Positions 46,392 to 59,324 of a stretch of DNA of 64,000 bases are shown here, piece after piece. Made by a program: the position numbers and the translations under genes. The stretch is from Pseudomonadota bacterium (lineage in GTDB: Bacteria > Pseudomonadota > Alphaproteobacteria > Acetobacterales > Acetobacteraceae). The stretch spans positions 1 through 64,000 of the forward strand of contig JAJZFB010000002.1 in the NCBI GenBank assembly GCA_021805545.1, given 5' to 3'. The notes beneath the pieces are model-generated. The model ran no database searches. It was not told where the DNA came from and saw nothing but the letters and a program-made list of their open reading frames with translations. The stretch's first letter is position 1. Each line of letters starts with the position of its first letter.

Positions 46392-46468
46392 GCGCCCGTA
46401 GCTCAGCTGGATAGAGCATCAGACTACGAATCTGAGGGTCAGGAGTTCGAATCTCTTCGGGCGCGCCA
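46392..46468 (+). tRNA. tRNA-Arg (anticodon ACG)
   Basis: 77 nt including CCA. Acceptor GCGCCCG/CGGGCGC, D arm GCTC-AGCTGGAT-AGAGC, anticodon stem TCAGA/TCTGA with loop CTACGAA (anticodon ACG, read as ICG after deamination), T arm with TTCGAAT, discriminator G then encoded CCA. It serves CGU/CGC/CGA codons. Its 3' 46 bases are the attachment site of the integrative element that follows, and integration leaves the gene intact. Confidence 0.97.
46423..46468 (+). repeat. attL: 46-bp direct repeat (tRNA-Arg 3' half)
   Basis: It begins ACTACGAATCTGAGGGTCAG in the anticodon loop region and ends with GGGCGCGCCA. It matches 59279-59324 exactly; the flanking bases differ on both sides (G/T before, T/A after), which fixes the repeat borders. 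Confidence 0.95.
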
Positions 46469-46540
46469 TCTTTCCTAGAAAAATCAAGGGCTTTCTGAGC
46501 ACCCTTCGCGGACGTCACTGGGCATGGGCGCTTCTGCCCA

Positions 46541-46555
46541 CCACAATCCCCCCAA
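46541..46555 (+). repeat. 15-bp direct repeat near attL
   Basis: CCACAATCCCCCCAA, 72 bp inside the left end, recurs exactly at 59125-59139, 139 bp inside the right end, in the same orientation. It is a possible integrase or accessory-protein arm site. The rest of 46469-46662 holds no gene. Confidence 0.5.
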
Positions 46556-47998: not shown

Positions 47999-48715
47999 AT
48001 GGACGGACCCGAGACGACGGCGCCGGCGGAAGAGGCCGGCCGCGTGACACAGATGCTGGACACGATCTGGAACGAGATCGTGCTCGGCGATTCCAAGCTG
48101 AATCCGGAGAAGTCCTGCTTCGATCTGGCCGATGAGTACAGGCACTCGGGGAAGACGGCGGAAGAGTGCGCGGAGAACTTCATTGGCTGGCAGACCGCGA
48201 AGGCCGGCGCCGCCGGCTTCGCCCTGGGGCTTCCGGGCTTCGCCGCGATGCCCCTCACGGTCCCGGCCGACTTCCTGTCGGTCGCCTACCTCCAGCTCCG
48301 CATGGTGGCCGTCATCGGCATCCTCTTCGATTGGGACGTCCGCTCGGACCAGTTCAGGACGATGGCGTACCTCAGCCTGCTCGGCTCCGCCGCAGGGGAA
48401 CTCACCCGCGACCTTGGCATCAAGGCGACGACCAAGATCGCCATGGGCGCGATCAACAAGGGGGTCTCCGGCGCCGCGCTGAAGAAGATCAATCAGGCCA
48501 TCGGCACCCGGCTGGTGACGAAGGCCGGCAGTACCGGCGTGGTCAATCTGACGAAGATCGTGCCGATTCTCGGCGGCCTGGTTGGCGGCGGCGTCAACGC
48601 CATCGTCACCCGCCAGATCGGGAAGACCGCGATCTCGTGGCTGAAGGAAGGGCCGCCACCGCACGGGGACGATGGCGGAGATGACGGCGACATCATCGAG
48701 GGAGAGACTGCATGA
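47999..48715 (+). CDS. EcsC-family protein
   Basis: 238 aa. The EcsC pattern is AAGFALGLPGFAAMPLTVPADF, then SVAYLQLRMVAVIGILFDWD and, nearer the C-terminus, ATTKIAMGAINKGVS, VNLTKIVPILGGLVGGGVNA and ARQIGKTAISWL-like text. The N-terminal 70 aa is a unique acidic segment and the tail (HGDDGGDDGDIIEGE) is very acidic. EcsC proteins associate with membranes; their biochemical role is not established. The gene overlaps the next by four bases (ATGA), so the products probably act as a pair. Confidence 0.75.
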   Translation: MDGPETTAPAEEAGRVTQMLDTIWNEIVLGDSKLNPEKSCFDLADEYRHSGKTAEECAENFIGWQTAKAGAAGFALGLPGFAAMPLTVPADFLSVAYLQLRMVAVIGILFDWDVRSDQFRTMAYLSLLGSAAGELTRDLGIKATTKIAMGAINKGVSGAALKKINQAIGTRLVTKAGSTGVVNLTKIVPILGGLVGGGVNAIVTRQIGKTAISWLKEGPPPHGDDGGDDGDIIEGETA

Positions 48716-49407: not shown

Positions 49408-50421
49408 TTATTCCTCGGGTGGCTCTTCGCCTGGGGCGTCCAGCATGGCGTCGGTCGAGAGCGCTTTGACTCGGGAGGCGAACACGGCGCGGAAGCGGTC
49501 CATCTTCTCCAGCATCCAGCGGTGCAGCTCCGGGTACTGAGTTGTCTGGGCCGGATCGACGCCCGACCGGAAGATTGCAATCCTCGACGCCTTCTTCCCC
49601 GGCAACTCCTGCCATTCCAGCGCGGTTCCAAATTCGGCCTCGATCAAGCCCCGCTGGGCATCGAGAGCACGGAAGGCTGCCTTGCTCGGATCGTTGCTCA
49701 TGTACAGCTCGACACCAATGCGGCTCTTCTGGGTACTGGCCGTTGCGTCGATCAGGAAGCCCGCTCTGCCGATCGAGAACTCCGCCCAGTGCCTCGCACG
49801 AGGTCTCTTCAGCTCGAACGATGACTTCTGCTCCTTCAGGTGCGAAGCGAACGCCGTCCAGTAGGCGAGACTGACCCGTTGACTTTCTGTCGCCACGGCA
49901 CTCTCAGCCCTTCTCACGGCCGTACGGGCCACCTTCGCCCAGTCATTCGGGCTGGCGACGATGTTGAAGCGCGGCGCCGCAGGAGAGGGGCCGATGCGCC
50001 ACAGCTCGATCTCGATGGCGAAAAAAGAGAAATCTTCAAGGGTGTTGGCGTTTAACCAGTCCACCGCCGCCCGGTGGTCGGGTTGGATACTCTCGGCGAT
50101 CCAGACCACGGTCTTGGTTTCCTCCACTCCACCCAGATAGGTGAGCACCTGGCCAAGATGGCTGTGGTCGGTCGGACCGAACTGGTTCTCGATGATGACG
50201 CGGTGCTCGGCCTCATCGGTTGAGCGAGCGAGGATGTCTGCGCGGAATCTCCCCACCGACCTTTCAACCGCTTCGACTTCAAGCCCCATGTTGAGCGCCT
50301 GCCCCAGGAGGGCGATGTTGCGGGGCTCCGCCAGCCACGGCGTGAAATTGCCGTCCTCGGTCGGCCATGCAGTTCTCAACGGCACCTTCTCGAACGTGCC
50401 CAGGGGGATGACTGAACTCAC
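49408..50421 (-). CDS. DUF4268 protein, putative PD-(D/E)XK nuclease
   Basis: 337 aa. Residues ~50-95 hold GRFRADILARSTDEAEHRVI followed by IENQFGPTDHSHLGQVLTYL: Asp62 and Glu78-x-Gln80, a D...ExQ variant of the PD-(D/E)XK core. The C-terminal half (WTAFASHLKEQK, YMSNDPSKAAFRAL, WQELPGKKASRIAIF, HRWMLEKMDRFRAVF) is DUF4268. Such proteins are often found near restriction and defence genes; their target is unproven. It is the last gene before a small membrane protein gene and the integrase. The gap 49213-49407 before it has no gene. Confidence 0.75.
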   Translation of the reverse strand: MSSVIPLGTFEKVPLRTAWPTEDGNFTPWLAEPRNIALLGQALNMGLEVEAVERSVGRFRADILARSTDEAEHRVIIENQFGPTDHSHLGQVLTYLGGVEETKTVVWIAESIQPDHRAAVDWLNANTLEDFSFFAIEIELWRIGPSPAAPRFNIVASPNDWAKVARTAVRRAESAVATESQRVSLAYWTAFASHLKEQKSSFELKRPRARHWAEFSIGRAGFLIDATASTQKSRIGVELYMSNDPSKAAFRALDAQRGLIEAEFGTALEWQELPGKKASRIAIFRSGVDPAQTTQYPELHRWMLEKMDRFRAVFASRVKALSTDAMLDAPGEEPPEE

Positions 50422-50504: not shown

Positions 50505-50759
50505 TCATGCCGTGGTTGACGGTCCACCGGAGAGCCACGCCCACATGGCACAGACGCCGGCGGCGGTGAGGACGATGTCGAATTGGGGCGCGAGGCGCAG
50601 CTCGACCTCGGCGCCCAGCAGCGCCATCACCACCGGCAGGGTGAGGACGATCTTCACGGCTGCGGGCAGGCGATTCCAGAGGCTGCGCTTCCTGGCCGGT
50701 GACTGCTCCTGGCGCGGCGGCGCGACCTCGACGGCGAGCTTCTTCTTCTCATTCCTCAT
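50505..50759 (-). CDS. Small membrane protein of unknown function
   Basis: 84 aa from ATG 50759 (GAAAGGAACCACC before it). A basic N-terminus (MRNEKKKL ... SPARKRSLWNRL) is followed by one or two hydrophobic segments (IVLTLPVVMALLGAEV and IVLTAAGVCAMWAWLSGG). No family recognised. It lies just downstream of the integrase gene on the same strand, behind a GC hairpin. Confidence 0.5.
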   Translation of the reverse strand: MRNEKKKLAVEVAPPRQEQSPARKRSLWNRLPAAVKIVLTLPVVMALLGAEVELRLAPQFDIVLTAAGVCAMWAWLSGGPSTTA

Positions 50760-50849: not shown

Positions 50850-52061
50850 CTACGCGGCGTCCCGCACCTCCGCCTTCGCGGCCTCAGGCTCGGGCAGCAG
50901 GTTCCAGGCCCGCAGCGCGGTCGTTGCGGTGTCGATCAGCCTCTGCGGCGAGTGGTGCGCGTACCTCGTCGTCGTGCTGAGCTGCGTGTGGCCGAGCACG
51001 GTGCCGATCTCATTCAGAGGTGTCCCGGCGTTGGCCAGGGCACTTGCGAAGCTGTGCCGCAGGTCGTGGACGCGCAGATCCTCGGGCAACCCCGCCGCCT
51101 CCCTGGCCCGCCGCCACGCGCCGCGCACGCCTTCCACCGGCTGGCCCTCCCGGCGGGCGCTGGGGAACACGTAGGGATTCTCCGGGTGGAACTGCCGCTT
51201 GGCGAGTTGGCGCTGGAGGATCGCCACGGCCACGGTCGAGAGCGGGATGTGCCGCGTGCGGCCGGACTTGGAACGCGGCACGGTGAGGATGCAGCGTTCC
51301 AGGTCCACGTTCTCCCACGTCGCCTTCAGCGCCTCGCCCCGGCGAGCGCCGGTGACGGCGAGGAACGCCAGCACGGACGCGGCGGTCTCGTCCGGGTCGG
51401 CCGCCAGCGCCCGGAAGAGCGCCTGCGTCTCCGCCGGGGACAAGTACTTGTCGCGGCCGACCTCGCGCAGCATCCCCGGTGACGCGGCCGGGTTGCGGCC
51501 CTGGTACAGCTCCCATTTGAGCGCCTGGTTGAACATGGCGCGCAGGGTGGCGAGGTGCCGGTTGACGGTGCCGTTCGCCAGTCCCTCTCCCACCATCCTA
51601 CGCCGCAGTTCCGCCACGTCCTGGGGCGTGACCTCGTCCAGCGCCTTCTTCCCGATGGCGGGCAGGATGCGCTTCCGCAGGTACGCCTCGACGTTGCCGG
51701 CCGCGCGCAGGTGCTCCTGCACGTGCGGGACGTATCTGTCCTTGGCGAATTCTGCGACGGTGGGGACAGCGCGCAGCTTTGCCCTCTCCGCCGCCGGGTC
51801 GCCGCCCAGGCTGACCTCGGCCTTGAGCTGCTCCGCGCGCTTGCGGGCCTGGTCCACGGTGACGTCGCCGAGGCGGCCGAGCCTGACCTCGTGCCGGCGG
51901 TTCCGCGCGTCATTGTACCGGAAGTAGAACGTCACGCCGGAGGCGCGCTGCTCGGCGATGAAGCCGGCGAGCCTGTCGTCGAAGATGCGGTTCTTCACTG
52001 CGCCCTCCGGCAGGGGCGGCAGCTTCTGCACCAGGGTGCGGGTGATGGTGGTCGCGGCCAT
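50850..52061 (-). CDS. int: Tyrosine recombinase (phage-type integrase)
   Basis: 403 aa. N-terminal arm-binding region (KNRIFDDRLAGFIAEQR ... VRLGRLGDVTVDQARKRAEQ), SAM-like core-binding domain (about 100-190) and catalytic domain with Arg240 (TGARRGE), Lys265, His332-x-x-Arg335 (HDLRHSFASALA), His358 (LGHTQ) and Tyr367 (TTTRYAHHS). It catalyses site-specific recombination at the tRNA-Arg att sites. Unusually it lies in the middle of the element, 4.4 kb from attL and 7.2 kb from attR. The AlpA-like gene is immediately upstream. Confidence 0.95.
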   Translation of the reverse strand: MAATTITRTLVQKLPPLPEGAVKNRIFDDRLAGFIAEQRASGVTFYFRYNDARNRRHEVRLGRLGDVTVDQARKRAEQLKAEVSLGGDPAAERAKLRAVPTVAEFAKDRYVPHVQEHLRAAGNVEAYLRKRILPAIGKKALDEVTPQDVAELRRRMVGEGLANGTVNRHLATLRAMFNQALKWELYQGRNPAASPGMLREVGRDKYLSPAETQALFRALAADPDETAASVLAFLAVTGARRGEALKATWENVDLERCILTVPRSKSGRTRHIPLSTVAVAILQRQLAKRQFHPENPYVFPSARREGQPVEGVRGAWRRAREAAGLPEDLRVHDLRHSFASALANAGTPLNEIGTVLGHTQLSTTTRYAHHSPQRLIDTATTALRAWNLLPEPEAAKAEVRDAA

Positions 52062-52141: not shown

Positions 52142-52381
52142 CTACCCGGCAGTGCTGTGGCGCCGATTCGCCTCGACGAAGGCTTCCAAATCTTCCTGCT
52201 GGTACCGAACGTACTTGCCCGAGAGCTTGATGAAGGCCGGCCCGGCGCCCGTGCCGCGCCAGCGCTCCAGCAGCTCGGCGGTGACGCCCAGGCGCTCGGC
52301 GGCCTGGGGCGCGGTGAGCAGCGGGCGCAGCCCCCGCTGCTCGGTGGTGGTGGTGCCAGCCTCGATCGTTTGCTTGGCCAT
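52142..52381 (-). CDS. AlpA-like helix-turn-helix protein (excisionase/activator candidate)
   Basis: 79 aa from ATG 52381 (GGAGACGAG upstream). A MerR/AlpA-type winged HTH: LLTAPQAAERLGVTAELLERW, then GPAFIKLSGKYVRYQQEDLEAF. AlpA proteins activate integrase expression or act as directionality factors in phage satellites and mobile islands. It lies 80 bp upstream of the integrase on the same strand; the gap contains the G-rich repeat GATGGGGGTCAT (52087-52098). An upstream ATG at 52438 would add 19 residues. Confidence 0.82.
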   Translation of the reverse strand: MAKQTIEAGTTTTEQRGLRPLLTAPQAAERLGVTAELLERWRGTGAGPAFIKLSGKYVRYQQEDLEAFVEANRRHSTAG

Positions 52382-52572: not shown

Positions 52573-53199
52573 CTACCCGGACTCGCCGGAGGCACCCGCC
52601 ACCAAGCGTGCGATCCGCACGCGGCGCATCTCGGCCGCCAGGGCTTCGCGCACGGCGTTGCGGCAGGTCCAGAGCCGCGAGATGTACGGCGCCCGAGCGG
52701 ACCAGTCTCGCAGCGCCTCGTCCACCACGATCAGCACCTGCTCCGGCGTCACGCCTTCCTCGCGGCTGGCGGGATCGGGGCAGAGTGGCAAGTGCAGATC
52801 GCCTGCGCGCGCCAGCGTCCATCTATACGGCGAGGGTAGACCGCCGGGACAGAATTCCACCCCGGCGCCGAGCGGCTCACCCGCCTGCATTTGCCGGACC
52901 GCCTGCCCGAGCGCCTCCAGCACGGCGAGCGCGCCGCCCTCCGGCATCCGCGCGTGCTCCAGCGCCATGCGGGCCTGCACCACCAGAACGAGTTGGCGCA
53001 GCGCCCAACCGGACGGCGCGGAGCAGACCGTGCCGTACCGCACCGGCAGGCCGAAGCCGTCGCTGCCGGTGTCCAGTACGGCGACCCAGAAGCGCTGCTC
53101 CCAGTAGGGCAGCACGTCGGCGTTGGTGAACAGCACGAAACGTTCTCCGTCTCCCGTGCGGCGCACAGCGACGATGGATTTCTCGTCGAAGTCGATCAT
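52573..53199 (-). CDS. Cassette copy 2, large protein (unknown family)
   Basis: 208 aa. No recognised domain. Features: a Trp-rich N-terminal half (LPYWEQRFWVAVLD), a central helix-rich stretch, and a conserved segment RWTLARAGDLHLPLCPDPAS then EEGVTPEQVLIVVDEAL. The last 50 aa are Arg-rich. It is paralogous to the 222-aa protein 0.5 kb upstream (PWTLARTGSFTIPLCPDAEA, GVTPEQLLAVIEMAL). Its ATG overlaps the stop of the 118-aa partner by four bases. Part of a two-gene cassette repeated in tandem. Confidence 0.7.
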   Translation of the reverse strand: MIDFDEKSIVAVRRTGDGERFVLFTNADVLPYWEQRFWVAVLDTGSDGFGLPVRYGTVCSAPSGWALRQLVLVVQARMALEHARMPEGGALAVLEALGQAVRQMQAGEPLGAGVEFCPGGLPSPYRWTLARAGDLHLPLCPDPASREEGVTPEQVLIVVDEALRDWSARAPYISRLWTCRNAVREALAAEMRRVRIARLVAGASGESG

Positions 53200-53552
53200 G
53201 CGCGCACGTCTCCCTCGGTGCTGGCGGCCGGAACCATTTTGGTTCCGTCCGATTCGCCAGCCTGGTCCACCTCGAACACCAGCCAGGAGTCGTCGCTGTT
53301 GATCGTGGCAGCCACACCCTCGGGAATCTTGAAGCAGACCAGCTCCTCCTCGTTGTCGTCGTCGTTGAGGCGGAGCAGGTCGTCCGGCTCGCGTACCTGG
53401 ATGCCGAGCGTGGCGAGGTACTTGATGACATGGAGCGGGTCCTCGCCGGTGCGGACGGCGTCGACGAATTTGATCCGCTGCACGTCAGGCAACTTCTCGA
53501 CCTCGGAGTACCGGGAGAGCAGCGCCTCCAGGGTTTGGATTTCTTGGTCCAT
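53196..53552 (-). CDS. Cassette copy 2, small acidic protein
   Basis: 118 aa. Very acidic: NDDDNEEELVCFKIPEG, with a GEDPLHVIKYLATLG core. No known family. It is paralogous to the 99-aa protein at 54322 (shared LP..., GDDPLHLIPYFADLG, DLL). The short/long pair with 4-bp overlaps in both copies suggests an obligate two-protein unit, as in toxin-antitoxin or inhibitor-effector pairs, but no mechanism is visible. Confidence 0.7.
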   Translation of the reverse strand: MDQEIQTLEALLSRYSEVEKLPDVQRIKFVDAVRTGEDPLHVIKYLATLGIQVREPDDLLRLNDDDNEEELVCFKIPEGVAATINSDDSWLVFEVDQAGESDGTKMVPAASTEGDVRA

Positions 53553-53571
53553 GTGTTGGGCTCCAGACGCA

Positions 53572-53601
53572 GGAAGCCCCGCCGGTGAGGGCGGGGCTTC
53601 C
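53572..53601. other. GC hairpin between the two cassette copies
   Basis: GGAAGCCCCGCC (53572-53583) with GGCGGGGCTTCC (53590-53601), perfect 12-bp stem, 6-nt loop, in the spacer between the copy-1 large gene and the copy-2 small gene. No T-run on the minus strand. The spacer after copy 2 has a similar hairpin. Confidence 0.5.
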
Positions 53602-53656
53602 CGGTCAATGCTGGTTGGAAGGATTGCCCAGGCCGGCGTCGGCCTGGGCACCAGCA

Positions 53657-54325
53657 TCACATGCGGCTGGACTCCGACTCTGCCGCGTCCACCGTGGCCA
53701 CGTGCTCCTCCCAGCGCGCCATTGCCCGCCTGACCTCCAAGGCCAGCGCCGCCTGCACCGCGCGGCGCGCCTCCCAGCAGCTCCGCCGCCAGGGCGTGGC
53801 CGGCAGCCAGGAGCTGAGCGCCATCTCGATCACGGCGAGCAGTTGCTCCGGCGTGACGCCGCGCTGCCGCGCCTCCGCGTCCGGGCAGAGCGGAATCGTG
53901 AATGACCCTGTCCTGGCCAAGGTCCACGGGAACGGCGATGCCACCCCGCCCGGCGGGGCCGGCTCGAAGGCGACCGGCGGCACCGCCCAGCCCGCCTGGG
54001 GTTCTCGATGCACGGCGGCGGCCCGGTCCAGGTGGCGCACGATCTCGGCCAGGACGGGTTCGCCGGAGTGCGCCTGCTCGGCCTCGAACCGGGCCAGCGC
54101 CACGGCCAGGAGCTGGGCCATGGTCCAACCGTCGAAAGGGCCGAGACTGGCGAGGCGGAGGAACACGCCGCCGTCCGCCATCTCGACCACCGCGCCCCAC
54201 AGGCGCAGCGGTCGGCCGGGGACCAGATCGGCGGTGACGAGGGCGACGGCGCGCCCGGTGCTGGTCTTGTGCCAGGCGACATTGTCGCGGCCGCCCATGG
54301 CGCGGGCCGTCATTCCCGCGCTCAT
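53657..54325 (-). CDS. Cassette copy 1, large protein (unknown family)
   Basis: 222 aa, no known family, paralogue of the 208-aa gene. Segments shared: TLAR, PLCPD, GVTPEQLL and an Arg-rich C-terminus (RRAVQAALALEVRRAMARW). The middle of the molecule (AVALARFEAEQAHSGEP ... HLDRAAAVHREP) is helical. The start overlaps the stop of the 99-aa partner gene by four bases. Confidence 0.7.
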   Translation of the reverse strand: MSAGMTARAMGGRDNVAWHKTSTGRAVALVTADLVPGRPLRLWGAVVEMADGGVFLRLASLGPFDGWTMAQLLAVALARFEAEQAHSGEPVLAEIVRHLDRAAAVHREPQAGWAVPPVAFEPAPPGGVASPFPWTLARTGSFTIPLCPDAEARQRGVTPEQLLAVIEMALSSWLPATPWRRSCWEARRAVQAALALEVRRAMARWEEHVATVDAAESESSRM

Positions 54326-54621
54326 CGCGTGAAGAGCGCCCAGAGGCCGTCCACGGCGAGGAAGACGGCGACGCCCTCATCGACGCGGAACGCCTGGATT
54401 TCTTCCTCGCCGGGGTCGGTGCAGGCTGCGAGGAGGTCCTCAAGGTTGTCGATCCTCCTGCCCAGGTCAGCGAAGTATGGAATGAGGTGCAGCGGATCGT
54501 CGCCGCGCGCCAGCGCGTCGGCAAGGCGCACATGAGGCACGTGGCGGGGCAAATCGTTGCCCTCGGCGTGGCGGCGCACCAGTTCGCCCAAGGTTTGGAG
54601 TTGGCGGGGAAGTCCTGTCAT
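54322..54621 (-). CDS. Cassette copy 1, small acidic protein
   Basis: 99 aa from ATG 54621; the longer in-frame extension to 54702 is Arg/Pro-rich and unlikely. Resembles the 118-aa copy: LQTLGELVRR, ARGDDPLHLIPYFADLG, DNLEDLLAACTD and an acidic C-terminus (DPGEEEIQAFRVDEGVAVF). It is followed by the copy-1 large gene with a 4-bp overlap. Confidence 0.65.
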   Translation of the reverse strand: MTGLPRQLQTLGELVRRHAEGNDLPRHVPHVRLADALARGDDPLHLIPYFADLGRRIDNLEDLLAACTDPGEEEIQAFRVDEGVAVFLAVDGLWALFTR

Positions 54622-54831
54622 GTCGGTGGTCTCCGAGGCGCGGCACGGCCAAGCCCTCAGAGGCTGGCCGCTCCTCGCCGTGTGGGGTTGCTCGGCCCGC
54701 ACGGTGCGGGCGAGACCATCACATCCACCTCAGCTCGGACGCCGTCGCGCCGCTTGGTCGGTCACAGGCGATGGGGGTCATGGGGGGCATGGGAGGCGCC
54801 CGCCCGTGCCCACGAGATTCCGCCAGGGTCC

Positions 54832-56157
54832 CTACCCGGCTTCGCCGCTGTCGCCCCCGCCCAGCGGCTCCGTCCCCACGCCCGCCAGGGCCTGCCGCGC
54901 CGCCTCCAGCTCCGGCGCCACGGTGAAGAGGCGCGGCATCCCCTCCGCCACAGCCAGCGCGCCGGCGGTCTGCATCTCCTTGAGCGCCAGCAGCACGGGG
55001 TTGCTCGCGGCCTGCCCGCGCATGTCGAATTTGCCCTCGGCCAGCAGCCTCTCCAGGGCCAGGTTGGCCAGAGGCTCCACCTCCGCGCTGCGCGGGCGGC
55101 CGGCGGCGCCCGCCTTCTTCGGCGCCGGGGCGGCCAGGCGCAGCAGCGGCGCGAACGCCAGCAGGAAATCCGCGCCGGTGCGCGGCACGGCCACAAGGGC
55201 CTCGTTGAGTACGTCCACCGCCTCGTCCAGCAGGGCCTCGGCGCCGTGCGCCAGATGGGCCAGCTCGTCCGCGACGTCCGCGCCCAACAGGCTCGGCGCG
55301 GCGGTGGGGAGGCGCAGGCGCTTGCGCAGGGCGGAGACCACGGTGGGGCTGCGCAGCGAGACCTCCACCCTGACCAGGTCCGGCCGTTTGGCGTACACTT
55401 TCCTCTCCGGCGCGTTCTTGCTGCCCTCGTGCCAGTAGGCTGTGAGCGCGTTCCCGCGCTGCTTGGCGAAGAATCGGCCACCCTCCTGCCGCGAGCCCAG
55501 GATCGGGCGGTCGCGCAGGCGGCGAACGAAGTGCTCAGCGCCGTCCTCGTACAAGTAGTCGCGGCAGAACTCCGCCTGCTGCACCCGGACCGCGCCCAGG
55601 AGCTGGTCTGAGGCGACGCGGGAAGCCACCGCCAGCGCCGCCACGAAGGCGTCCACCGCCTCGGCCACCGCGCGGAGCTGGAGGGGCAGCAGGTCCACGT
55701 AGGCGCCGGGGGAGTAGGGGGCGGAGAGATTGTCCTCGCCCCTTGGCCCTACGGCCAGGGGGGAGGGGAGCAAGGAGCGCAGCGCGCGCATGGGGTCCGG
55801 CAGGAGCGTGCTGCCCCGGCGGATTTGGAGCCTGCCGGCGCCGCTGGGGACCAGGGCGAGCTGGCCAGCCAGGGAGACGGAGGCACCGCCAGCAAGGCGG
55901 ACAGGCGCAGGGCCTACCTTGAGCGGCCGTTTCAGGACTGCACCCGGTTCGGGCGCGCGGAGCAGGAAGCCGGCGCGGGCCAGCGCCCGGCAGAACCTGG
56001 CCGCCTCGCGCGGCGTGGCTTTCACCGGAAGCAGGATGTCCAGGCTGAGCTGGACGCGGTCGAGGAGCACGTCCGCCGCCTGCCCGGCGGCAGACGAAGC
56101 CAGCACACCCGCCACGGGAGCAGCCCCGGCGTCTTCGACTTGGTCCGGCACGCGCAT
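54832..56157 (-). CDS. Candidate replication initiator (gene II/X-like)
   Basis: 441 aa. Residues 243-259 carry KVYAKRPDLVRVEVSLR, the K-x-Y-x-K ... R-x-E-x-x-L-R pattern seen in rolling-circle initiators related to phage gene II protein. The N-terminal half (DRVQLSLDILLPVKATPREAARF) and RRLRDRPILGSRQEGGRFFAK fit the same type. Residues 330-441 are unassigned. It would nick or initiate at an element origin. It precedes the duplicated cassette, AlpA and integrase in the same direction, an arrangement like rep-xis-int modules of other integrative elements. Moderate confidence. Confidence 0.5.
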   Translation of the reverse strand: MRVPDQVEDAGAAPVAGVLASSAAGQAADVLLDRVQLSLDILLPVKATPREAARFCRALARAGFLLRAPEPGAVLKRPLKVGPAPVRLAGGASVSLAGQLALVPSGAGRLQIRRGSTLLPDPMRALRSLLPSPLAVGPRGEDNLSAPYSPGAYVDLLPLQLRAVAEAVDAFVAALAVASRVASDQLLGAVRVQQAEFCRDYLYEDGAEHFVRRLRDRPILGSRQEGGRFFAKQRGNALTAYWHEGSKNAPERKVYAKRPDLVRVEVSLRSPTVVSALRKRLRLPTAAPSLLGADVADELAHLAHGAEALLDEAVDVLNEALVAVPRTGADFLLAFAPLLRLAAPAPKKAGAAGRPRSAEVEPLANLALERLLAEGKFDMRGQAASNPVLLALKEMQTAGALAVAEGMPRLFTVAPELEAARQALAGVGTEPLGGGDSGEAG

Positions 56158-56474: not shown

Positions 56475-56640
56475 GGTCCGAGACCAGCGCGCGCCCCAAG
56501 GGCGCGCCGGTCATCACGAATCTGGATTCTGGGTGCAGCTCTCTATTTCCTGCGGCGCCGTATGGCGCCGGTATCGGTCCTGTGGACCGCCAGCCCGCCG
56601 TGGCGACGGCGGGGAAGCACGCCTATGAGCGGCGCGTCAA

Positions 56641-58356
56641 TTACGGCCGGGTCGGGCCGCTGAGGCCGTCGAGACTATCAACGGTCTCGATCTGACCAGC
56701 ATTGTCACCACCGCCGGGGCGGTGGTCCTCATCGTGGAGCGCGGCATCGGTGCGCTCCAGCCGATACCTGTGCGGGGACCACTTGCCCGCCATCTCGATC
56801 CACCGCAGGCGGAAACCGTTGCAGGCCGCACCGTTGAGCTGCATGAGCTTCCGGGCCACGGCCTGGCGGCTTTCGCCGTCCTGCGCGAGCAGGTGCCATA
56901 CATTGCTGTGCAGGTCCTTGCCCGTCACCTGCCGGTTGCCGTGGTGGTGCCACCACGTCTCGAAGAGCTCGGCGAGCCATGTGCGCTCCGAGTCACCGGC
57001 CTGCCGCTTGGCGATCTCCTCGACCGCGTCCTTGCACTCCAGCGCCAGCAACGGGTCGCGGCACATCCGGCTCCACTGCTCGAAGCTGCCCATGGAGCGG
57101 CCGCGCGGCAGGTCGTCGCCCTGCTGCAATCCCCACGTCACGATCGTCAGGACATCAGAGAGAATTTTTCCCCGGTCCCGCCGCGTCTCCGCAAGGAAGT
57201 CGCCCGTGAAGCTGCGCGCCTCGGGGCTCTCCACGCCGGGGTTCAACTGCACCTCCAAGAAGCGGCGGCGCAGATCTTCCGTGACGCTGAGCCCGTTTCC
57301 CGTGACGCAGATGAAGGTCGCGGAGTTGAGCGGCACCAGCGTGCTGGTGCGGAGAACGCGGACCTGTGCCGGGTTCTCCGTGATCGCCGAGGCGAGCAGG
57401 TTGGACCGCAGCTCGGTGGCGTTCACGTTGTCGAGCAAGATGATCGGCGTGGCCGTCATCAGAACGGCGGCCAGGCGCTTGTCGAGCTCGTCTACGTTAT
57501 GGCCGGTCGTCATCGCGGTCGGCGAGAGGCCATAGGCCACCTCCGCGATGAAGCGCACCAACATGCCCTTCCCCGAGCCGGCACCGGACAGGTACGGCGC
57601 GGTGACGAGCAGGCCCGGCACCAGCCCCAGGCTGGCCCGGCACGCGGCGGTCAGCAACGCAGTGAGGTAGATGCTCTCATCCGCGCCCGGCGGCTGGTCG
57701 ATGTCAACCACCGGCTCCTCGGAATCGTCCACCTTCACGCGAACAGCGTCCGCGAAAGGGAACGTCCTGAGGCGCTTCCGCAACCGCTTGAGGGCGGCCA
57801 CAGCAGCGCGGCGCTCGGCGCGATTCTGGATCATCACAGCCACAGTGTTGTGGCAGTAGATGCCCGAATCGGGGTCGTAACCATCCGTGTGCCGGATGGT
57901 GCCGTCCGGTGCGAGGAGCGGCCCGTAGGCGATCCCATTGAGCGGCGGCAAGTTTGCCGCCCCGAAGGTGGACAGAGCCAGATTCGACACCCGTGCCGGG
58001 AGAGCAATGTCCTCCCGGCGGGTGCCAGACCGCGTCTTCCTCTCGGCGTACGGCTGCGCGATCTCGTGGAGGAGGGTCGTCACATCGTCCGCCGTCAGGA
58101 TATGCGCCACGATCAAGCCCGGCTGTTCGCCGGGGCAGAAGGTGACGGCCCTGCCGCCGCGCCGAAAGACGCCCAAGGGCTCGATCAGTTCGCAGACACG
58201 CTTCGCCGTACCAGGCGGGTCCTCCGTCACCACATGGAACGGCGGCTTGACGCCGCCGTTCTCCTCATCGGAGGCCGGAGCGTCAGGCTGGGCGTTCGTC
58301 TCGTCTGGTGCGGGCGGCCGCTCGGGCGGCAGATCGTCCTCATCAAGTGTACTCAT
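56641..58356 (-). CDS. P-loop primase/helicase-like protein
   Basis: 571 aa. Residues ~255-265 have Walker A GAGSGKGM (Lys263), Walker B TPIILLDNVN (Asp299), a sensor-type FICVTGNGL and the Arg-finger-like EDLRRRFLEVQL. The N-terminal 250 aa is unassigned but could hold a primase-type domain. The C-terminal part is similar to the helicase half of phage/plasmid primases (P4 alpha and DUF927-type). It probably helps replicate the element. Its 5' end faces attR; a G-rich leader of ~0.9 kb precedes it. Confidence 0.8.
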   Translation of the reverse strand: MSTLDEDDLPPERPPAPDETNAQPDAPASDEENGGVKPPFHVVTEDPPGTAKRVCELIEPLGVFRRGGRAVTFCPGEQPGLIVAHILTADDVTTLLHEIAQPYAERKTRSGTRREDIALPARVSNLALSTFGAANLPPLNGIAYGPLLAPDGTIRHTDGYDPDSGIYCHNTVAVMIQNRAERRAAVAALKRLRKRLRTFPFADAVRVKVDDSEEPVVDIDQPPGADESIYLTALLTAACRASLGLVPGLLVTAPYLSGAGSGKGMLVRFIAEVAYGLSPTAMTTGHNVDELDKRLAAVLMTATPIILLDNVNATELRSNLLASAITENPAQVRVLRTSTLVPLNSATFICVTGNGLSVTEDLRRRFLEVQLNPGVESPEARSFTGDFLAETRRDRGKILSDVLTIVTWGLQQGDDLPRGRSMGSFEQWSRMCRDPLLALECKDAVEEIAKRQAGDSERTWLAELFETWWHHHGNRQVTGKDLHSNVWHLLAQDGESRQAVARKLMQLNGAACNGFRLRWIEMAGKWSPHRYRLERTDAALHDEDHRPGGGDNAGQIETVDSLDGLSGPTRP

Positions 58357-59278
58357 TCTCTTGCAGTTCCCGAAGTAGCTGTGCCCGCCACGGCCAAATG
58401 CTCACTGTCGAAACGTTCCTTGGCGCCCCATGTAGGGAACGTCGTGGCGTCGTTCGGTGGTGAACCCAGGTTGTGGCGGCGCAAGGATGGCGAGCCACCC
58501 TTCTAAAATCTCGCTTGGAAGAGCGAGACCTCTGCTGTTCGCCAGCATCAGCCCGGACCGCGCAGCGCGGTTCGGGCAGTCTGGAACTGCACCCAAAAAA
58601 TCCAGATTCAATTGTCAAAGAACAAGGCTTAGTCTGTAATTTATCCAACTATGGACGATTTGACTATCTCGTCCGTCCATTCAAAGATGCCGCTTGAAAG
58701 CAAACCTCTTAATCATGGGCTGGGCTGCCTACCTATCAATAGTGTGCGACAGACGCAAGGCCGCACGTGGAATGTGCAGAAGTTTTTTTGGTCAGTGCGG
58801 AAGGCGCCGCACTGACGCGGGCAGACTCTCTTGTGAACGCGCGGAGTATCGGGATCATCGGGGGCCATCGGAATCGAAGAACCGTGTCCCCCGATGGGTC
58901 CCATGCTTCTTGGAATGGGTACGGAACGCTGGCCGGAGACGACATGGTCACGTCGCCCTTCGGAGGACGAGCGGCCCGGCACCGCAGGCCATGTCCATGG
59001 CGGCGGTGAGGCGCCGCGAATGGGTGGCACCCACGAAGGCAGCGGGGTGCGGCCGCGAGCAGGGGCCGACGCAGCGCCACATGCGCGGCGAGCAGGTGCC
59101 ATGATCCCTCCCACCTGCGTCCCCCCACAATCCCCCCAAGGGATCAGCGGCGATGGGGGACGGTCAGGTGCCATCATGGGGTACAACCCGAGCGAGTCGC
59201 GTTCCGCCGCTTGGCCACGGAGAGCGAACAAGGGCCATCGGGGGCGGTCAGCGGCCATTGGTTGCTTGATCGAAACGT
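58357..59278. other. Leader region without a convincing gene
   Basis: 922 bp between the primase-like start and attR. Reverse ORFs such as 58402-58611 have no ribosome-binding site and no family. It contains GTCAGTGCGG (58791-58800) pairing with CCGCACTGAC (58807-58816); a T-run sits on the wrong side for termination. Two imperfect direct repeats at 59152-59175 and 59236-59260 share GGGGG(A)CGGTCAG..GCCAT, and the 15-bp repeat CCACAATCCCCCCAA is at 59125-59139. It could hold the origin and integrase/AlpA sites. Confidence 0.4.
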
Positions 59279-59324
59279 ACTACGAATCTGAGGGTCAGGA
59301 GTTCGAATCTCTTCGGGCGCGCCA
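59279..59324 (+). repeat. attR: 46-bp direct repeat
   Basis: Exact copy of the tRNA-Arg 3' half, starting ACTACGAATCTGAGGGTCAG and ending GGGCGCGCCA. It lacks the 5' half of the tRNA, so it is not a functional gene. It marks the right border of the element. Confidence 0.95.

Follow-up and report, generated by a model that had tools for sequence, protein, structure and literature searches.

Two gene pairs in an element integrated at tRNA-Arg(ACG)

The window, by which we mean the whole 64,000-nucleotide stretch analyzed here (positions 1 to 64,000 of contig JAJZFB010000002.1, assembly GCA_021805545.1, Acetobacteraceae), holds two adjacent gene pairs in which a small gene (S1, S2) is followed by a larger one (L1, L2), and the locus raises the question of what these pairs belong to and what they do. 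A sequence-only reading had described them as a tandem duplication of a two-gene cassette, not recent, in which a 4-bp overlap is kept in both pairs. This description holds on each point. S1 and S2 share 38% identity (E 2e-18) and L1 and L2 share 39% (E 8e-31), which evidently makes them paralogues, and the overlap of S with L, an ATGA in both pairs of the window, recurs in all intact S2/L2 pairs examined among relatives and in nearly all S1/L1 pairs. The S proteins are strongly acidic (pI 4.1-4.9). L had been characterized as Arg-tailed; the protein is not basic overall, with pI values of 5.5 and 6.5 in the window and near neutral to acidic values in most members.

Table 1. Features of the element and of its S-L cassettes, in window coordinates.
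Feature	Position	Strand	Description
tRNA-Arg(ACG)	46392-46468	+	ARAGORN; downstream of leuC-leuD-leuB
attL-side direct repeat	46423..46468	+	46 bp, 3' end of tRNA-Arg(ACG)
Cargo, EcsC-like	47999..48715	+	PADLOC candidate PDC-S29; candidate defence gene
Cargo, DUF4268	49408..50421	minus	PADLOC candidate PDC-S11; candidate defence gene
84-aa protein beside integrase	50505..50759	minus	Family F04, conserved in 11 compared loci; no known family
Tyrosine integrase (P0006)	50850..52061	minus	Arm-binding and catalytic domains
Excisionase-like HTH_17 protein	52142..52381	minus	Pfam HTH_17, E 6e-9
GC-rich hairpin after L2	52507..52536	minus	Without T-run; separate from leader hairpins
L2	52573..53199	minus	208 aa
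S2	53196..53552	minus	Small acidic protein, 118 aa, pI 4.2
S2 leader	53553..53668	minus	Hairpins 53626-53649 and 53572-53601, then RBS
L1	53657..54325	minus	222 aa
S1	54322..54621	minus	Small acidic protein, 99 aa, pI 4.9
S1 leader	54624..54730	minus	Motif RTGTGATG, stem-loop 54695-54711, second stem-loop, then RBS
441-aa basic protein	54832..56157	minus	Family F09, common to four elements; no known family
571-aa primase/helicase-like protein	56641..58356	minus	PHROGs
attR-side direct repeat	59279..59324	+	Perfect 46-bp copy of tRNA-Arg 3' end; other end of element

The cassettes lie within a 12.9-kb element inserted in tRNA-Arg(ACG), bounded at both ends by perfect 46-bp repeats of the tRNA 3' end and encoding its own tyrosine integrase, with a Phage_integrase domain (E 1e-34) and an arm-binding domain (E 2e-12). 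Relatives come from the acid-loving genus Acidocella and from other Acetobacteraceae. In genome G014 the tRNA gene is followed directly by DNA resembling that to the right of attR (83% over 82 columns), and other genomes hold other DNA at this hotspot; the G014 junction appears consistent with an empty site. The primase/helicase-like protein matches phrog_29234 (unknown function, E 2e-48) and phrog_19930 (DNA polymerase/primase, E 2e-7) in PHROGs. Among the element genes scanned no relaxase was recognized, nor any phage packaging or capsid gene among those compared with PHROGs. An imperfect inverted repeat, GAATCTGGATT-(2-4 nt)-GGGTGCAG, occurs at 56518-56538 and 58587-58609, flanking the primase/helicase-like gene. 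Near both element ends (46537-46553 and 59121-59137) the repeat CCCACCACAATCCCCCC is found with one mismatch; two matches were reached in 3 of 100 shuffles, and the repeat is a candidate arm-type site of the integrase.

The defence candidates of the window occupy a variable cargo slot between the integrase and attL, apart from S-L, and in relatives this slot is filled by different genes, among them those for a SIR2-domain protein (PDC-S65), for a Schlafen/AlbA protein, or for a glycosyltransferase together with a methyltransferase. Such cargo lends some credit to the idea that S and L are themselves an anti-phage or anti-element defence system, for which phage-challenge assays had been suggested at the outset. 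We consider this very improbable: S1, S2, L1 and L2 have no match in PADLOC, and the candidates sit in the variable slot across the integrase, whereas S-L is nearly invariant, unlike defence cargo. A stand-alone defence function is therefore not indicated for genes that lie in the integrase-linked core, outside the cargo slot.

A structured leader precedes S

A leader of ~110 nt stands before every S of the Acidocella elements, consisting of the motif RTGTSATG, a first stem-loop, a strong second stem-loop, and then the RBS. The S2 leaders covary: compensatory double changes occur in 7 of 21 pairs, pairing cells make up 96.5% versus 92.1% in shuffles, and the covariation score is 0.171 versus 0.084, with none of 500 shuffles scoring as high and slid controls collapsing. 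R1, a covariance model for which the S2 leaders alone served as training set, recovers the majority of S1 leaders (E 4e-13 to 2e-2, and 1e-4 for that of the window), with a weaker match to the S1 leader of L034/L046 (E about 0.1). It also detects the leader of S in G057 (1e-8) and, in G239, those of S and of an orphan S (5e-8 to 2e-5). Upstream of L in elements that carry L alone, R1 finds nothing convincing. In Rfam, no model reaches or comes near its gathering threshold on the window's leaders.

These leaders change how the cassette is delimited. The hairpins between the cassettes had been taken to end each copy. They make more sense as the 5' leader of the S gene that comes next, since a homologous leader also stands before S1, where the preceding gene is unrelated. 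Since the model built on S2 leaders finds most S1 leaders and nothing convincing before a lone L, the duplicated unit is leader, S and L together, with the leader following S; the two genes first proposed as the unit are thus part of a larger one. The sense strand has similar counts of G-U (7) and A-C (6) cells, so the structure may be one of RNA or one of DNA.

Duplication history and selection

In maximum-likelihood trees, L1 (12 rows), L2 (14), S1 (12) and S2 (13) each form one clade with ultrafast bootstrap values of 99-100. Because all four are single supported clades, the whole leader-S-L cassette was duplicated once, before the Acidocella elements diverged, and the copies then became fixed subtypes, S1L1 and S2L2. 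Values of dN/dS range from 0.14 to 0.45 across S1, L1, S2 and L2, and all four are therefore real genes under purifying selection.

The family is present in 7 of 37 other Acidocella genomes searched, where the commonest arrangement of the carriers, S1-L1-S2-L2, has the order seen in the window. Other elements show losses (gene starts in relatives being set by homology): S2-L2 is kept with a fragment of L1 in L035/L048 and by itself in L033/L045, and a stop at W90 cuts S2 in L032/L042. On contig JAKBCR010000041.1, two different elements (L050 and L038) stand in tandem, each with S1-L1-S2-L2 and an integrase, so that carrying one element does not bar a second.

Linkage to one integrase clade

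A search of 397 Acetobacteraceae genomes with the integrase of the window recovered 15 copies with 57% identity or more and three with 51-54%. Fourteen of the 15 could be assessed, the integrase of G047 lying too close to a contig end in this integrase-side search; L is directly upstream in 13 (with the excisionase-like gene between in some) and S in one (G189), counts that are not independent as the elements are related to one another. All three integrases at 51-54% identity are without S and without L. Conversely, a search of the same genomes with L returned 13 genomes, among them that of the window as well as G056 and G286, whose matches are weak or partial and are left out of the count, and a search with S returned only loci of L-carrying genomes together with G047 and G189. 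An integrase of this clade stands beside all S matches and all L matches whose E-value is strong; in G047, where S and the integrase are on two contigs, adjacency is inferred across the contig break. The linkage of S and L to a single integrase clade is exclusive, within a search that scores a few candidates per genome and in which absence is not proof. A tie to integrases, which the sequence-only reading had proposed to look for, thus exists and is much tighter than sequence alone could show.

S-L is transcribed towards the tyrosine integrase, just upstream of it, and in Acidocella usually upstream of the excisionase-like gene as well. The latter varies in position: it precedes S in L037 and L034 and follows the integrase in L079 and L080. 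The linkage of S-L to the integrase holds through these shifts and through changes of cargo. That S and L might instead belong to a replication, copy-number or transfer-control module, for instance of a phage satellite, and stand beside the integrase by chance, is suggested by the primase/helicase-like gene and the lack of a relaxase among the genes scanned, and satellites do carry small unknown regulators beside the integrase and excisionase genes. This is unlikely, as S-L stays beside the integrase while the replication-type genes (F08, F09, F15, F21) differ between elements, and the genes scanned include none for phage packaging or capsids.

Linkage of this kind could also come from co-inheritance alone, in which case S and L would be selfish passengers that hitch-hike beside the integrase with no role in the life cycle of the element. 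The purifying selection on S1, L1, S2 and L2, the persistence of both subtypes in the majority of Acidocella elements and the covarying leaders all speak against this account and make it improbable.

Two further loci, L034:13111-17252 and L074:14785-19000, encode a tyrosine integrase 51-52% identical to that of the window, without S or L. Next to it is encoded a protein of ~970 aa that matches DNA_pol_B_2 weakly (E 1e-5 and 7e-8), and the two genes are possibly part of a pipolin-like element.

S and L are not an obligate pair

The conserved overlap had been taken as a sign that the two proteins are an obligate pair, a claim that the relatives contradict in both directions. L stands alone before the integrase in four elements (L076, L078, L079 and L080), with no S-like ORF or leader found upstream of it, and G047 has an intact S of 96 aa without an overlapping L start. 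Two elements of G239 depart from the pairing in another way, with the order S-S-L. As each of the two proteins is missing from some elements, neither can be a universal requirement. The contig of G047 that starts with the integrase has a small unrelated ORF in the place of L, and a similar small ORF lies between a degenerate S and the integrase in G189. These ORFs (L115:1-250 in G047, L107:8455-8733 in G189) encode ~60 aa and end in ...IRIEINFTR and ...IKIELNFHPR, respectively. In L078 (6679-9800, genome G218), a CRISPR array adjoins the L-integrase module, with ~50 repeats at a period of 61 nt and the repeat GGTCCATCCCCGCGTGGGCGGGGGAGCC.

The most familiar alternative, an addiction module that stabilizes the element in the manner of toxin-antitoxin systems, is weakened by these elements with only L or only S. 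Under it, S would be the antitoxin and L the toxin, translated in a coupled fashion and autoregulated through the leader. The gene order with the acidic small gene first, the ATGA overlap, the leader before each S and the location on a mobile element all fit. TA modules usually move between replicons, whereas S-L keeps to a single clade of integrases. Further evidence against an addiction module, which we regard as quite unlikely, comes from the four elements that retain an intact L but no S before it, from S without L in G047, and from the lack of any match to a TA family or fold.

Sequence and structure searches

No family had been recognized for these proteins by eye, and profile and structure searches likewise give none for S or L. 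S1, S2, L1 and L2 have no match in Pfam, NCBIfam, PHROGs or PADLOC, and PDB sequence profiles return nothing significant for either protein. With the proteins folded singly, AlphaFold2 predicts for L2, with confidence, beta strands around a four-helix core (pLDDT 84.5, pTM 0.87), and its model of S2 is less certain (pLDDT 78.7, pTM 0.65). Foldseek gives no match at E <= 0.001, and the fold search with S reaches a best Z of 3.1, with no match among viral models. A ferritin-like bundle was considered for L and rejected, its best VIA Z of 7.3 being at background for helical models; profile comparison does not support a repeat within L (GWT..QLL versus GVTPEQLL; P 0.05). Neither S nor L has a Pfam HTH, and the lack of a significant fold match is still compatible with a distant DNA-binding fold.

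No homologue of L was found in phages, plasmids or IMG/VR, and none of S in plasmids or IMG/VR. Outside Acetobacteraceae, 385 genomes of the class and 299 of the phylum, with few candidates scored per genome, yielded no L except in L044. This contig, binned as Nevskia (Gammaproteobacteria), has an Acidocella-like element with S1 80%, L1 84% and S2 83% identical, possibly a cross-class transfer or a misbinning. We found no description of these elements in the literature.

A proposed role in the control of recombination

Judging from their sequence context, S and L belong to the core accessory genes of a family of Acetobacteraceae elements that integrate at tRNA-Arg. As the best explanation, suggested by the exclusive linkage, we propose, tentatively and at somewhat less than an even chance, that they control site-specific recombination by this integrase clade, and with it the insertion or release of the element. 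L would be a partner, regulator or directionality control of the integrase, S would serve as a small acidic modulator whose translation is coupled to that of L, and expression of each cassette would be under the control of the two-hairpin leader. The linkage itself is shown; the role of L or S in recombination, regulation by the leader, and the mode of S-L interaction are all inferred. A fuller version, in which leader-S-L is a new recombination-control module whose leader governs translation of a coupled pair acting directly on the integrase clade, with subtypes specialized, for example, for control of integration and of excision, is rather unlikely as a whole. Several points speak against recombination control. 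Linkage is not function, and it could reflect co-inheritance with the integrase and hitch-hiking within one element lineage. The element already has an HTH_17 excisionase candidate, so that no directionality factor is obviously missing. S and L are also without a recognized DNA-binding motif or significant fold match, and S is acidic.

Comparison with known systems

Mobile elements commonly encode tyrosine integrases, whose timing and direction are set by proteins that often go unrecognized. At this locus, two protein families for which no fold was recognized, and with them a conserved leader, are linked to one clade of integrases, and the elements concerned bear defence genes. Cultured carriers exist (Acidocella facilis and A. 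aromatica), so the role of S-L is directly testable.

In encoding small proteins beside the integrase of an integrative element, the locus resembles those of the recombination directionality factors (RDFs), such as Xis and its relatives. The classical members are small proteins of winged-helix or HTH type, most of them basic; S, in contrast, is acidic, L has ~210 aa, neither has a recognized HTH, and the element has a separate HTH_17 gene. Like type II toxin-antitoxin operons, S-L has a small first gene that overlaps a larger second one and lies on a mobile element, but it differs in that S also occurs without L and no family matches. A toxin that is always accompanied by its antitoxin is likewise not what was found, as the four elements with L and no S show. 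With P4-like and PICI-type satellites and defence-carrying islands the element shares tRNA insertion, integrase and excisionase genes, a primase/helicase-like gene and variable defence cargo near the integrase, and it is unlike the satellites in having no phage-derived packaging genes among those scanned in the window. In the libraries searched, S and L do not appear among the genes described for satellites and islands.

A comparison may also be drawn with the SE elements of Gammaproteobacteria, whose operon intA-tfp-intB-srap includes Srap, a protein needed for recombination of attL with attR; the study of SE elements found no Tfp or Srap homologues in Alphaproteobacteria. The intA-tfp-intB-srap core is not present here: the element has a single integrase, and S-L is not accompanied by another gene of recombinase fold. 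Like Srap, S and L are auxiliary element proteins of no known enzymatic class, encoded beside tyrosine recombinase genes and restricted to one bacterial group. Unlike SE elements, the element of the window has a single catalytic integrase, an excisionase-like gene, insertion in a tRNA gene, and an S-L cassette that is present in two copies, each with a structured leader.
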